A stretch of 59,424 nucleotides of DNA from an uncultured Alphaproteobacteria bacterium (lineage in GTDB: Bacteria > Pseudomonadota > Alphaproteobacteria > RF32 > CAG-239): contig CALXTE010000009.1 of assembly GCA_944391345.1 (NCBI GenBank), positions 1 through 59,424 on the forward strand, written 5' to 3'. Below are positions 46,285 to 50,979 of this stretch, piece by piece (the first letter of the stretch is position 1; each line of letters starts with the position of its first letter). The translations under genes were made by a program, and so were the position numbers. The notes beneath the pieces were generated by a model. That model was given only the letters and a program-made list of their open reading frames with translations. It ran no database searches and was not told the DNA's origin.

Positions 46285-48297
46285 ATGAAAAATTCACGAC
46301 AAGAGGCGGTTTTAACCGCAATACTAATGGCGGCAGGACTGCTTCCGTTAAGTGCAAAAGCTAATATTTCTTTTTCTAAGTATGGAGAAGAGCTTATCTA
46401 CACACTTCACACACACCTTACTTCTCCAACTTGGCGCTTGCCTTCTTCTGATAAGATTAAAACCGCAGCGGTATGTTTTATATCAGACACCGAAAATTGT
46501 AGTGACGGTATGTTTGGCAATACCGAAAACAGTGGTGGAAATGGTGGTTCCGGCGGGGCGCCTGATTATGATTTGAATGACGCTGAACGTTGCCGCAAAG
46601 AAGGCTATTCTTTGACTTCTTGCGCCGCTGGAAAAACGCCGGAAGGTTTTTGTATTTATAACAGTAATTACTTTGCCCGTTGCGTTTGCCCCTCTGGTTA
46701 CAAAACTTGCGAACCGCCTTATTATGGTGTCGGTACGGCTTGCGGTGATAAATATGCATCTTGTGAAGAAGACACCGAACGCGCTTGTAAAGAGCAGGAT
46801 TCTGAATTTACCGACACCTGTCAAACAGGCTGGAAAGTTGATCCGAATAATGCTTGTGAATATGACGCCACATTCGGAAAATGTTGTAACCTTTGCGAAG
46901 GTTATGATTACACCACTATTCCCGAAGGTTATATTGCTGACGGGGTGGCTTGTGTGGATTGCAACGGAACGAGCAAATATAAAATCAAAATCAACCCATG
47001 TGACGGTTTCCAGGATTGCGGTGTTATGGGCGGTGATACCGGCGCCAAAACCTGTATGTCTGGCTCACAGATAAAATATGATAATTGCAAACCTTGTCCA
47101 AACTTGGGAACACTTTCGAGCTGCCCAAGTCCGTTCACTTGTACTTATGAGGAATGTTCTAATCGTTATTATAAATCCGGTTGCCAGTCCGGTTATGACT
47201 GGAATGCCACCGCCCAAACCTGCACCCCGCAATGCAGCAGTGGTTATCAATATACCTGCACTGGAACAGGTTATTCCGGCGGCAGCGGTACGGCTTGTAA
47301 TGGATTATATGAGGCATGTACTTGCTCTAGCGGATATTATTGGAGTGGAGAATCTTGTGTAAAATACAATGATTGCATGAGAGGCTCTCAAATCGGTCAT
47401 GTCCTTAATAGCGATATGACCGTAACCCCGACCAAACAAAGTGGTAAAACACCAATCGGGGTTGTTGTCTGTTCTTATGAAAATGGTGGCGGACAAGCTT
47501 TGGCTTTGAATTCGTTAGGAAGCTATGAGTGGGGCGGATATGGTACGGATATCCCGGGCTTAACGTACTATGATTCGGTTGCAGCTGCATCACAAGACGT
47601 AGCAAGTTGCGAAAATAGTAAAAAGATAATGGCACTAGGAGATAACAGATATCAGGCTGCATGGGCTACGAATGAGTATAGTACAGAAGGTACAAGCGTA
47701 GGCGATTGGTGCTTACCGGCGGCTGGAATATTAAACTCACTTTTTTTCACCTATAGCTCGATCAATTACGCGCTTAGACAAGCGGGCGGAACACGACTCG
47801 AAGCCAGACCCCGTCTTTGGTCGTCGTCCAAGCTCCGTAGTGGCCACGCGTTGTTCTCAAACTTCCTCTACGATTACGGCTTGGACGACTTCAGTACGGG
47901 GTTTAGCCTCGATGTTCGTCCCGTTATCGGTTTCTGCAAATCAGGATATGAGTATGACAAGTCAACAGACAGCTGTAAAATTCGCACTTGCGGAGACGGA
48001 TATTCAACATCCTTACAATCTGAATGTCTCGAATATGACACTTGCCAATCTGGCTCCACAACATATTACCGTTGCACAGAATGTAATCCCTGTTCAACTA
48101 TGTGTAACTCTGAATGTGTCAATGGTTATGATGATATAAGTGAAATAGGAAGATACGAAACCTATGAAACTTGTCAATACAACAATCAAACCTATTACAG
48201 AGCAACCTCATGCGACAAATCTCATCCATGGAACAGACTTGACGATTCTCGAGGATATTGCTATACAAGCGGTGGAGACAATTTACCTTGTCTGTAA
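46285..48297 (+). CDS. Large secreted cysteine-rich protein with C-lectin-like domain and variable-region-like segment
   Basis: The 670-residue product begins with the signal peptide and N-terminal block shared with the 15154 gene (SAKANISFSKYGEELIYTLHTHLTSP). It continues with many cysteine-rich modules (CPSGYKTCEPP, CQTGWKVD, CEGYDYTTIPEGY, CPNLGTLSSCPSP). A C-lectin-like domain spans about residues 365-550 (GKTPIGVVVCSYENGGGQAL, GDWCLPAAGI, WSSSKLR...DVRPVIGF). Another cysteine-rich tail of about 115 residues follows (CKIRTCGDGYSTSLQSEC, CNPCSTMCNSEC). In the 15-kb locus the same two parts are separate genes. No membrane anchor is visible. Role unknown; surface attachment and variable ligand binding are inference. 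Confidence 0.8.
   Translation: MKNSRQEAVLTAILMAAGLLPLSAKANISFSKYGEELIYTLHTHLTSPTWRLPSSDKIKTAAVCFISDTENCSDGMFGNTENSGGNGGSGGAPDYDLNDAERCRKEGYSLTSCAAGKTPEGFCIYNSNYFARCVCPSGYKTCEPPYYGVGTACGDKYASCEEDTERACKEQDSEFTDTCQTGWKVDPNNACEYDATFGKCCNLCEGYDYTTIPEGYIADGVACVDCNGTSKYKIKINPCDGFQDCGVMGGDTGAKTCMSGSQIKYDNCKPCPNLGTLSSCPSPFTCTYEECSNRYYKSGCQSGYDWNATAQTCTPQCSSGYQYTCTGTGYSGGSGTACNGLYEACTCSSGYYWSGESCVKYNDCMRGSQIGHVLNSDMTVTPTKQSGKTPIGVVVCSYENGGGQALALNSLGSYEWGGYGTDIPGLTYYDSVAAASQDVASCENSKKIMALGDNRYQAAWATNEYSTEGTSVGDWCLPAAGILNSLFFTYSSINYALRQAGGTRLEARPRLWSSSKLRSGHALFSNFLYDYGLDDFSTGFSLDVRPVIGFCKSGYEYDKSTDSCKIRTCGDGYSTSLQSECLEYDTCQSGSTTYYRCTECNPCSTMCNSECVNGYDDISEIGRYETYETCQYNNQTYYRATSCDKSHPWNRLDDSRGYCYTSGGDNLPCL
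47817..47930 (+). other. Candidate DGR variable region 2
   Basis: Starts TTGGTCGTCGTCC as in region 1 and ends in GTTCGTCCCGTT. It encodes WSSSKLRSGHALFSNF, then LYDYGLDDF. The codons are mostly NNC/NNT with residues Leu, Arg, Gly, His, Tyr, Asp, Phe. It is internal to the gene, followed by a cysteine-rich tail. Confidence 0.45.
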
Positions 48298-48354: not shown

Positions 48355-49128
48355 TTACTTAATCCATTTACAGGCTTCGGCATATTCTTCTGGGGTGTTA
48401 ATATCGGCCGGCGCTTCATCAATCAGCTTCATATTGCCGATGATTTTTGCGCGAATGGTCATACCGTTTTCAAGAGCGCGGAGTTGCTCAAGAGATTCTT
48501 TTTCTTCCAAAACGCCAACCGGCAAAGACACGATTTTTTTAAGAGACTTGGCCTTAAAGACATAAATTCCGATATGATGATAATAATCATGATTTTTGCA
48601 CTTTTCCGGATTACGGATATAAGGAGCCGCCGCGCGAGTAAAATACAGGCAGCGACCTTCGGTTTCGCCCTCTCGAAGTCCCATACAAATTTTAACCATA
48701 GTCGGATCATGAATATCTTTCTCGTTTTTGAAGAGCATACCACAAGTCGCAATATCGCAGTCCGTGCGTTCAATCATTTCGATTAAGTCGAGATTAACTT
48801 TCGGGTCAACATTGAGTCCGTCTCCCTGAAAATCGACAACAATGTCATATTTTGATCCATCAGGGTCAATTTGATTAAGCGCGGCGGCAATACGATCGGT
48901 TCCACTCGGCAGTTTAGGGTCTGTCAAAATAGCGGTTGCGCCAAATTTTTTAGCCTCATCAACCAACACCTGATCACCGGCGGCAATAATAATATCTCCG
49001 GGAACGGCGGCTTTAACATTTTCATAAACGCGTTGCAATACGCTTTTTCCATTCACATCAAGCAAAGGCTTGTTCGGCAGGCGAGTAGAAGCCATGCGCA
49101 CCGGAATCATGGTAACAATCTTAGACAT
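48355..49128 (-). CDS. kdsB: CMP-KDO synthetase (3-deoxy-manno-octulosonate cytidylyltransferase)
   Basis: Activates KDO for lipopolysaccharide core synthesis. The 257-residue enzyme starts at ATG 49128 (MSKIVTMIPVRM), after AAAGGAA; a TTG one codon earlier is ignored. The nucleotide-binding start IPVRMASTRLPNKPLLDVNG and the VDFQGDGLN block are present; in the second the usual family VxxQGDEP reads QGDGLN, a small departure. It also has HHIGIYVFK, EQLRALENGM and a C-terminal DINTPEEY. Stands alone upstream of the hairpin-rich non-coding region. Confidence 0.93.
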   Translation of the reverse strand: MSKIVTMIPVRMASTRLPNKPLLDVNGKSVLQRVYENVKAAVPGDIIIAAGDQVLVDEAKKFGATAILTDPKLPSGTDRIAAALNQIDPDGSKYDIVVDFQGDGLNVDPKVNLDLIEMIERTDCDIATCGMLFKNEKDIHDPTMVKICMGLREGETEGRCLYFTRAAAPYIRNPEKCKNHDYYHHIGIYVFKAKSLKKIVSLPVGVLEEKESLEQLRALENGMTIRAKIIGNMKLIDEAPADINTPEEYAEACKWIK

Positions 49129-49212
49129 CAAAAAATTCCTTTCATCAAATACAAAAGATAAGCCACGCTACCACGAAATAAAATAAAATCAAAGTTTTTT
49201 ATATAAAATCTG

Positions 49213-49241
49213 TTGACAAAAAATAAAAAATAAATTATATA
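49213..49241 (+). promoter_or_regulatory. Promoter P1 of the hairpin RNA array
   Basis: TTGACA (49213-49218), 17 bp, TATATA (49236-49241). Strong match to a sigma70-type promoter, pointing into DNA with no ORF. Confidence 0.75.
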
Positions 49242-49247
49242 AACCCC

Positions 49248-49561
49248 GTTTCATGTATTATTACATAGTATAATTACTCTTTTATTTATGTCTCAAAGAC
49301 GTCAAAGCGTTGACCTCTTTGGGATAAAAAGCAAGTCATTGTGAAATGCCTTACTTTTTGGTGTTAAGCTAGATTTTCAATCAGTAAGACCTTTGTTTAT
49401 CAGATGTCTTTCTGAAAAATCCTTCGTGCAGAAGACAAAAACGTTGTGAAACGGTCTTCTGGTTTTGGTTACTTTTAGATTGTTATTGCAAAAGGTTTTG
49501 CAAAAACTGTGTTTATTTATGTCTTTAAAGAGTCGTTGCGAAACGGCTCTTTATTTTTTTT
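49248..49561 (+). ncRNA. Candidate non-coding RNA 1 (hairpin array)
   Basis: No convincing ORF. The transcript would contain hairpin A (49294-49321, AGCG loop, single C-C mismatch) and hairpin B (49326-49359, GTGA loop). Hairpin C (49430-49460) has a GTGA loop and a five-A bulge; a palindromic GCAAAA/TTTTGC lies at 49488-49501. Hairpin D (49526-49553, GCGA loop) is followed by T8, a strong terminator. B, C and D are each capped by a GNRA tetraloop on a four-base-pair stem, and B and D have a mismatch or wobble beneath it. Confidence 0.6.
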
Positions 49562-49564
49562 GTC

Positions 49565-49593
49565 TTGACAACAGCACTAAAAAGAAGTATAGG
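49565..49593 (+). promoter_or_regulatory. Promoter P2 of the hairpin RNA array
   Basis: TTGACA (49565-49570), 17 bp, TATAGG (49588-49593), starting four bases after the T-run that ends RNA 1. Confidence 0.7.
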
Positions 49594-49599
49594 AAAAGC

Positions 49600-49809
49600 A
49601 CCTGTTTATTATTTTAGGTATAATTGTATAATTTTCATCTTGAAGACATCAAAGCGTTGATTTCTTTGAGTCAAAGACTAAGCTGTTGTGAAACATCTTC
49701 TCTTTGGGCGTTAATAATCAGCACTTACCAATCAAAGTTTCTAAACTTTGTCGTGTTAAAATTTTTGTTTGTTTACCAGAGAGCCGTCGTGAGACGTTTC
49801 TCTGTTTTT
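49600..49809 (+). ncRNA. Candidate non-coding RNA 2 (hairpin array)
   Basis: Repeats the layout of RNA 1: hairpin E (49641-49668, AGCG loop, cognate of A), hairpin F (49672-49706, GTGA loop, cognate of B), then hairpin G (49777-49804, GTGA loop) followed by T5. Small ORFs overlapping here have no ribosome site and are not credible. Confidence 0.6.
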
Positions 49810-49839
49810 CAGAAAAAGTGAATAAAACGAGATATAACA

Positions 49840-49947
49840 AGTCTTCAGAACAGACTGAAGTATTCATCCTGCATGATTTGTTTGATGGATAAACCAACAG
49901 TTTTCTACGTTTAACAGAGAACCGTCGTGAGACGTTTCTCTGTTTTT
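49840..49947 (+). ncRNA. Candidate small RNA 3 of the array
   Basis: A TATAAC at 49833-49838 could be its -10; the -35 is weak. A CTTCAG/CTGAAG stem (49843-49860) is followed by terminator-like hairpin H (49915-49942, GTGA loop, T5), nearly identical to hairpins G and J. Confidence 0.45.
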
Positions 49948-49979
49948 AATGAAGAATGTAAACAAAACAATATAATTGA

Positions 49980-50087
49980 TTTGTCCCGAGACCGTCGTGA
50001 GACGCTTCGTGCATGTTGATTTTAGTTGATAAAATTACATTTCAAATTCGGCAGAGAACCGTCGTGAGACGTTTCTCTGTTTTTTTT
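49980..50087 (+). ncRNA. Candidate small RNA 4 of the array
   Basis: A perfect TATAAT at 49971-49976 lies at the same distance (56 bases) from the previous hairpin as in RNA 3. The transcript would hold hairpin I (49987-50009, GTGA loop, no T-run, imperfect stem) and hairpin J (50052-50079, GTGA loop) followed by T8. The T-run reaches the ldcA stop codon. Confidence 0.5.
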
Positions 50088-50979
50088 ATATGGAACAAAC
50101 CTGACAACCGTTTGCTGAGCTAAGGAGTTTAACTTCAGCACCTAAGGGCAGCATAACACGTTCAAAGTCATGCCCATAAGGAAAATCTTTGATGACGGGG
50201 ATAGAAAGCTTTTCACTAAAATAGGAGATAACCTCGTCAACCGAACCGTCACCCTCGCGGCGAATGAGGCAGTCCAAGCACCGCCCGAAGATAACACCGC
50301 TAAGCTTATCAAAATCTTTGCATTGAGAAATTTGTTGAAGCATCAGGTCAATTTTATAGGTCGGCTCTTCCACATCTTCCACCAACAAAATCGCTCCTTT
50401 GAGCGAGGGAAAATAAGGCGTTCCGCACAGATTGCGAAACAGGCTTAAACATCCGCCGACAAGCTTACCTTTTGCCTCGCCGACAATAACCGGTTTGCCT
50501 GCGCAATAGCAAAACTCGTCACCGAAAATCATGTTTTTGACACTTGCGTCAAGCGTTTTATTAAGACTTCCGTTTCTAAAATCATAATTGAGTGTCAGCC
50601 CGCTCGGGCAAATAAGGCCGCATTTTTCCACCAAGGCGTTTTGCAAAGCCGTTGTGTCGCTAAAACCAAACAGGGGCTTGGGATTTTTTTTGATGAGTTC
50701 AAAATCCAAAAGCGGCAAGATATATTGGCTTCCGTCACCGCCGGATGTGGCAAAAATGGCCTTAATCTCTGGGTCAAGAAAAAATCCCATAATATCTTCG
50801 GCGCGTTCTGCTGCAGTTCCCCCCATATAACGAAAGGACTTGAATGCATTTTTTCCCATAACCGGAATCAAGCCGAGTGACCGCAGGTATTCAACACCTT
50901 TGGCAATTTCTTGCTCGGTCACGTTCCGAGAGGGGGAAACCAGTCCGATTTTATCACCTGGTGTTAAGGGATAATACAT
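50086..50979 (-). CDS. ldcA: LD-carboxypeptidase (S66 family)
   Basis: Cuts the terminal D-alanine from cytoplasmic murein tetrapeptides during peptidoglycan recycling. The 297-residue protein starts with LTPGDKIGLVSPSRNVTE, has GGTAAERAEDIMGFFLDPEI and ATSGGDGSQYILPLLD. The catalytic serine is in LFGFSDTTALQNAL. A strong GGAGGTGAG ribosome site precedes ATG 50979. It lies 20 bp downstream of mpl on the same strand, a meaningful pair: LdcA makes the tripeptide that Mpl re-ligates. Confidence 0.92.
   Translation of the reverse strand: MYYPLTPGDKIGLVSPSRNVTEQEIAKGVEYLRSLGLIPVMGKNAFKSFRYMGGTAAERAEDIMGFFLDPEIKAIFATSGGDGSQYILPLLDFELIKKNPKPLFGFSDTTALQNALVEKCGLICPSGLTLNYDFRNGSLNKTLDASVKNMIFGDEFCYCAGKPVIVGEAKGKLVGGCLSLFRNLCGTPYFPSLKGAILLVEDVEEPTYKIDLMLQQISQCKDFDKLSGVIFGRCLDCLIRREGDGSVDEVISYFSEKLSIPVIKDFPYGHDFERVMLPLGAEVKLLSSANGCQVCSI

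Follow-up and report, generated by a model that had tools for sequence, protein, structure and literature searches.

The intergenic region between kdsB and ldcA of the window, the 59,424-nucleotide stretch of DNA analyzed here, contains an array of plus-strand hairpins that would represent a multi-hairpin small RNA (sRNA) with a new hairpin. The window corresponds to contig G000:C9 of a genome assembly of 1.63 Mb in 44 contigs, and the region spans approximately 0.9-0.95 kb, lacks a credible gene and holds ten hairpins. The hairpin is kept at several genome locations in relatives, which suggests an undescribed RNA family. From the arrangement of the sequence elements, we put at even chances the reading that multi-site sRNAs present one hairpin repeatedly to a putative trans-acting binder, probably a protein, and that the last hairpin acts also as terminator. 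The features of the region are listed below. E values refer to two covariance models, R1, built from the terminator hairpin, and the broader R2; each hairpin given an E value is itself a member of the model in question.

48355..49131, minus strand: kdsB-like gene flanking the array (Pfam CTP_transf_3)
49213..49241, plus strand: promoter-like site 1, TTGACA at 49213-49218, 17 bases, TATATA at 49236-49241; predicted start at about 49248
49289..49326, plus strand: hairpin A, AGCG loop; AGNG loops occur in five of six species, including that of the window
49325..49360, plus strand: hairpin B, core CATT-GTGA-AATG (R2, E 6.2e-5)
49429..49461, plus strand: hairpin C, core CGTT-GTGA-AACG; a bulge of 5 bases interrupts its 5' side
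49526..49561, plus strand: hairpin D, core CGTT-GCGA-AACG and T-run, terminator of unit 1 (terminator scan; R1, E 5.9e-7)
49565..49593, plus strand: promoter-like site 2, TTGACA at 49565-49570, 17 bases, TATAGG at 49588-49593; predicted start at about 49600
49639..49670, plus strand: hairpin E, AGCG loop
49666..49714, plus strand: hairpin F, core TGTT-GTGA-AACA (49684-49695)
49777..49809, plus strand: hairpin G, core CGTC-GTGA-GACG and T-run (R2, E 9.2e-6)
49913..49947, plus strand: hairpin H, GNGA core and T-run (R2, E 1.3e-6)
49982..50013, plus strand: hairpin I, GNGA core without T-run
50050..50087, plus strand: hairpin J, GNGA core and T-run, the last terminator, converging with ldcA (R2, E 8.5e-6)
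50086..50979, minus strand: ldcA-like gene flanking the array (Pfam Peptidase_S66)

All ten hairpins placed here by the first-pass annotation are present, two of them with AGCG loops and eight of the GNRA type, whose cores start at 49337, 49442, 49534, 49684, 49785, 49923, 49993 and 50060. Its view that the gap holds no credible gene also stands. No open reading frame (ORF) in the gap exceeds 65 codons, four of the small ORFs have no Pfam match above the cut-off, and no ORF is common to the gaps of six species, as judged by the longest ORFs of each gap (32-65 codons). A coding function was discarded because these longest ORFs are unlike across species and the four small ones searched are unmatched in Pfam. 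A PADLOC search of the kdsB-like and ldcA-like genes and three small gap ORFs returned no match.

The hairpins are far more frequent than expected by chance. The gap contains eight four-pair GNRA hairpins, whereas 1000 dinucleotide shuffles average 0.87 and never exceed 4. The minus strand holds a single such hairpin, in agreement with the plus-strand orientation proposed earlier. Two TTGACA-17 promoter-like sites lead into the gap, as had been claimed, by reading of the sequence (49213/49236 and 49565/49588); both escape a generic promoter scanner, whose -10 rule requires a T at position 6. All six columns of the -35 box of site 1 have at most one deviant among the aligned units, seven of eight of which reach there (G002 has TTAACA), and just two of the six -10 columns are as conserved as those of the -35 box. 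A counterpart of site 2 precedes the second unit of the relative G008. T-runs follow the stems ending at 49553, 49804, 49942 and 50079, which bears out the statement that at least four hairpins are so followed. The gap would encode one or more untranslated sRNAs, with predicted transcription of unit 1 from about 49248 to 49561 and of unit 2 from about 49600 to an end near 49809, 49947 or 50087. The fold of unit 1 (49248-49561) has a z-score of -6.0, with none of 100 shuffles as good, and that of unit 2 (49600-49812) is weaker, with a z-score of -2.4 and five of 200 shuffles as good.

The genus includes five other species (G001, G002, G003, G004 and G008) in which kdsB likewise lies beside ldcA, with gaps of approximately 262-795 bases. 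Every one of these gaps shows a box resembling TTGACA (TTAACA in G002) and units that each hold one to three hairpins built alike; a terminator hairpin adjoins ldcA, in the same place as hairpin J. G008 has two units, as does the window. A search of the six gaps for any four-pair GNRA hairpin, an unconditioned check that demanded neither a G as third loop base nor a U-A second pair, yielded 25 hairpins, all of which have a GNGA loop (25/25) and a U-A second pair (25/25), while pairs 3 and 4 vary with compensation. The excess is modest in G002 and G003, with two hairpins each (17 and 43 of 1000 shuffles as high, respectively). In ten terminator hairpins, 110 of 110 cells are paired, with two-sided changes at four pairs, and the second loop base may be A, C, G or T. 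Among the columns of the aligned units, 12 of 15 are conserved in the cores and 27 of 35 in the terminators, and 56 of 178 in all other parts. The first-pass annotation had weighed its reading against relatives that keep an ORF and lose the hairpins; the opposite was found, with the hairpins kept and no ORF in common. Five of the 12 genomes inspected in the genus have no array of at least two cores, among them G007, which has one strict and two looser hairpins.

The tip of the hairpin can be refined to a GNGA loop on a Y-R closing pair (U-A or C-G), with an invariant U-A pair beneath. The shared design described earlier, with an outer stem, a mismatch, four pairs and a tetraloop, is recovered; the accompanying GNRA motif stands as far as the eight tetraloop hairpins are concerned, but the loops are narrower, all being GNGA (GTGA or GCGA in the window). 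Pairing was counted over 68 hairpins of 16 regions, picked by the regular expression TYGNGARA, which conditions pairs 1 and 2 and the loop; five of the 73 hairpins so found were dropped for an unpaired third position. Position 4 is paired in 63 of the 68, position 5 in 21 and position 6 in 57. The 47 hairpins unpaired at position 5 have mostly C.C (19), C.U (12) or U.C (5) at this place. The loops are GTGA in 46, GCGA in 12, GAGA in 9 and GGGA in 1, and the closing pair is U-A in 60 of 68. These counts give the unfiltered rates; alignment A4 retains 38 of the 73 rows, filtered for pairing, and its covariation is inflated by this choice. When any four-pair tetraloop was counted in 16 array spans, chosen for having cores, GTGA occurred 44 times against 0.84 in shuffled sequences, GCGA 13 against 0.49 and GAGA 11 against 0.95. 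Because these three are far above shuffles and GAAA reaches just 7 against 2.43, the loop is GNGA and not general GNRA. AGCG loops constitute a second, weaker type (5 against 0.33).

Across relatives, the outer stems change with compensation while the tip stays constant. A strict tip, freely changing outer stems and several copies per RNA are read here as a repeatedly presented binding site. A different use of the same tip would be RNA-RNA tertiary docking, in which GNGA loops enter helical receptors of the same or another RNA to form a compact scaffold. The invariant third loop base could mirror a preference of minor-groove receptors, but the copy number and spacing of the cores differ among species, and we regard docking as very improbable.

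The tip also resembles helix 36 of 16S rRNA, with the tip UCGUGAGA, and the array might mimic this helix and titrate a ribosomal protein or an assembly factor. Four hairpins of the window have TCGTGAGACGTT or TCGTGAGACGCT, and the 16S stretch of the family reads TCGTGAGATGTT in all five genomes with a match (130 searched). Most array hairpins, however, have UUGNGAAA, with a variable loop base and a U-A closing pair in 60 of 68, unlike the 16S rRNA of their own family, where the tip is UCGUGAGA in 5/5 matches. The mimic was rejected on this account and retains only a trace of probability.

The hairpin is scarce in the rest of the window's own genome. Among 231 tetraloop hairpins followed by a T-run in 400 kb of this genome, seven have GNRA loops, two have GNGA loops and none has the tip; therefore, the tip is not the ordinary terminator of this genome, and a generic terminator loop was dismissed. 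Without the T-run condition, 4 of 1779 tetraloop hairpins in the 400 kb carry the tip; the same rule applied to the array gives 5 of 10. R2 gave 11 matches at E<=1 in the genome, five in the array and six elsewhere; of the latter, just one, on C2 at about 68904, has a core, and it has four of six outer pairs and lies antisense in a 247-codon ORF. Seven weak matches were found in the 400-kb sample, five of them within ORFs, and two other pattern matches in the genome were set aside, both being within ORFs. Neither R2 nor the pattern searches revealed a convincing copy of the hairpin outside the array in the window's genome. This weakens a simple sponge model, because competition with many mRNAs predicts more sites in the genome, and argues as much for a dedicated ribonucleoprotein as for a sponge.

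A covariance search of related genomes, as suggested in the first-pass annotation, recovered the hairpin in the window's genus, in genus g4 and in other genera. R1, applied to 153 genomes of the family, gave matches beyond the window's genus in members of g4. In G058 (g4), a large array follows dnaG. Arrays are located after the dnaG match in ten of the 15 g4 genomes with that DnaG (18 searched), namely G058, G061, G014, G064, G067, G071, G066, G072, G073 and G069, the DnaG domain itself having been shown for G058 only. The array of G014 comprises three cores, two of them with just three pairs. A contig end truncates locus L112, and no clear array follows dnaG at L113, L114, L115 and L123; four of the 18 g4 genomes inspected have no array of at least two cores. 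R2 was run on 34 chosen genomes and, with stricter filters, on 385 genomes of the class. The former search revealed further arrays of at least two cores in G059, G028, G063 and G070 of g4, in G005 of the window's genus and in G017 of genus g7, and a tentative pair of cores without T-runs in G166 (g40). In G005, G007 and G017, a cytidine-deaminase-like gene flanks the array on one side and an HD-domain gene on the other. The class scan, covering 277 genera, gave matches at E <= 0.002 in six genomes: G000, G017 and G031 within the family, and G318, G387 and G468 outside it, each a single match. G318 and G031 have no core hairpin, the matches of G387 and G468 resemble isolated terminators, and all four were discounted as arrays; under these strict filters, no array was found outside the family among the 385 class genomes.

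In some relatives the tip is found singly. G006, G010 and G011 (L138, L140 and L145) have a single tip-capped terminator after a gene of about 138 codons, which has no Pfam match above the cut-off in the two tested, and in G017 and G018 the tip also caps gene or tRNA terminators of ordinary appearance. Locus L173 of G017 has near-identical tip-capped terminators at about 1039 and 1313, after a tRNA-Thr gene (928-1003) and within about 310 bases. Such single copies, the several array hairpins that are terminators and an 80-nt stretch duplicated at 76% identity within the array fit a lineage-specific favourite terminator or stem-cap sequence that lacks a dedicated partner and has spread by local duplication. 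We consider this origin unlikely: capping terminators with the tip is not a habit of the window's genome (0/231), many copies lack a T-run, and the mismatch at position 5 persists (47/68 unpaired) although it weakens the stem. A repeat at the DNA level, or a small mobile element, that has no function as RNA is scarcely credible; the variable copy number and the different loci between genera would agree with it. The -35 box, the terminator and the strand-specific loops are conserved, G.U cells exceed A.C cells on the plus strand (57 versus 32 of 816), and the genome has no good copies elsewhere. A mobile or viral origin was rejected on the finding that two exact patterns had no match in viral contigs.

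A second carrier of the tip is the 3' UTR of a g4 gene encoding a protein of approximately 215-230 residues. This gene is present in 16 of the 153 family genomes, all of them g4 (protein alignment A5; 3' UTRs L092-L108), and three orthologues have no Pfam match above the cut-off. Its terminator bears the strict tip in 12 of the 16 orthologues. The hairpin preceding the terminator has the strict tip in eight and a GNGA loop with a C-G second pair in four more (L098, L099, L102 and L105). At least one GNGA-loop hairpin (one or two) is found in the 3' UTR of 14 of the 16; L103 and G014 (L107/L108) show neither of the two hairpins, in L101 and L104 the tip-capped terminator stands alone, and L098 and L105 lack a tip-capped terminator. 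The gene product is not the common binder because the window's genus has no homologue of it. At L061, the gene follows an ABC-auxiliary lipoprotein gene and is two genes before a MacB_PCD (lolC-like) gene.

A scan against Rfam 15 (4227 families), also called for at the outset, gave no match at the gathering cut-off for the window or for the arrays of 18 related loci, other than three flanking tRNAs; weaker matches, at E 0.07 and above, were judged to be chance. No description of a GNGA-hairpin RNA was found among the open-access texts that the literature searches reached. The closest working analogy would be CsrB/RsmZ. RsmZ is an RNA of 127 nt with four stem-loops and a terminator (PMC4005645). 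Like these RNAs, the array combines several copies of one hairpin with an intrinsic terminator and shows a recurring loop motif on top of conserved closing pairs, but their loop motif is A(N)GGAX and that of the array is GNGA. GGA appears just in the single GGGA loop of G003, the window loops being GTGA, GCGA and AGCG. CsrA is not expected to be the partner because GGA loops are absent, and a CsrA sponge was rejected for the same reason. The setting also differs from that of CsrB/RsmZ in that no other good site was found in the window's genome.

The CcsR RNAs of Rhodobacter, proposed earlier as an analogy, have a CU-rich loop motif. The analogy is not supported for the array: its flanks are kdsB and ldcA, none of four small ORFs of the window gap matches DUF1127, and CU-rich motifs are not enriched. 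Arrays elsewhere are flanked by dnaG, or by deaminase and HD genes, as far as their flanks were inspected for such a gene. CcsR1-4 share a transcript with the DUF1127 gene ccaF1, which starts at an RpoHI/RpoHII promoter and undergoes processing by RNase E (PMC10253847). The array resembles this locus (CIN1) as a tandem of alphaproteobacterial sRNAs ending in a Rho-independent terminator, but each of its units has its own TTGACA site and no DUF1127 gene is seen beside it. CU-rich anti-Shine-Dalgarno-like motifs number zero in the window array and 13 over 16 spans, where 9.4 are expected and 31 of 200 shuffles are as high; CcsR-like anti-Shine-Dalgarno regulation was discarded, the motifs not being enriched.

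The same count weighs on the possibility of Hfq-type base-pairing sRNAs, whose linkers would pair with target mRNAs while the hairpins would do no more than stabilise and terminate the sRNAs. The window's genome and all 20 genomes searched encode Hfq, the terminators end in T-runs and the relative G004 has ACCTCCTTTC in an apparent loop. The linkers, however, are poorly conserved and the hairpin tips conserved, and base pairing leaves the constant GNGA tip and the recurring mismatch unexplained. We view Hfq-type pairing as an unlikely account that nevertheless deserves weight.

Repeated RNA motifs that bind a protein are known from the ToxI RNAs of type III toxin-antitoxin systems. The array likewise repeats an RNA motif, but its core spacing is irregular (67-150 nt) and no toxin gene adjoins it, the flanking genes being kdsB- and ldcA-like and without a PADLOC match. 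The L17 downstream element is a candidate RNA whose strand was proposed on the basis of GNRA loops and G-U pairs (Weinberg 2010; PMC2864571). It is named for its place after L17 genes, and no Rfam family matches the array.

The reading of the array as repeatedly presented binding sites leads to the following model. Each sRNA would display several copies of an outer stem, a usually unpaired position (mostly C.C or C.U), four pairs and a GNGA loop, and the last hairpin of each unit would also end transcription. The constant tip would be bound by a trans-acting partner, which is most likely an RNA-binding protein; many sites per RNA would titrate or collect several copies of this partner, as CsrB/RsmZ do for CsrA/RsmE. 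The 3'-UTR copy of g4 would be targeted by the same binder or be its second carrier. On the side of observation, the array exceeds chance, is conserved with compensation across species and genera, and keeps a constant tip, which is absent from the T-run hairpins of the 400-kb sample. The earlier idea of an sRNA family with one recognised motif is supported, and is refined by the other loci in other genera. More broadly, and with confidence that falls a little short of even, we propose that one alphaproteobacterial family has an undescribed riboregulatory system, in which multi-site sRNAs at several loci that shift, and the 3' UTRs of a few mRNAs, would carry one GNGA hairpin for a dedicated putative RNA-binding protein. 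The definition of the hairpin (U-A pair, Y-R closing pair, GNGA loop and usual mismatch at position 5) is good enough for direct use as bait. The binder, if found, would be an RNA-binding regulator of a group of uncultured bacteria with small genomes, and would tell whether titration like that of CsrB arose repeatedly in evolution, around a different hairpin.

The surroundings of the array offer some further observations. The plus strand of the window at 46285-48297 encodes a Cys-rich protein of 670 aa, probably secreted and without a Pfam match. By eye, ldcA adjoins similar-looking Cys-rich coding stretches in relatives in which kdsB is not its neighbour (e.g., G010, G007 and G005). At L034 and L036, a tRNA-Ser (cga) gene adjoins ldcA, and a partial repeat of the tRNA end, seen by eye nearby, is possibly the scar of an integrated element.
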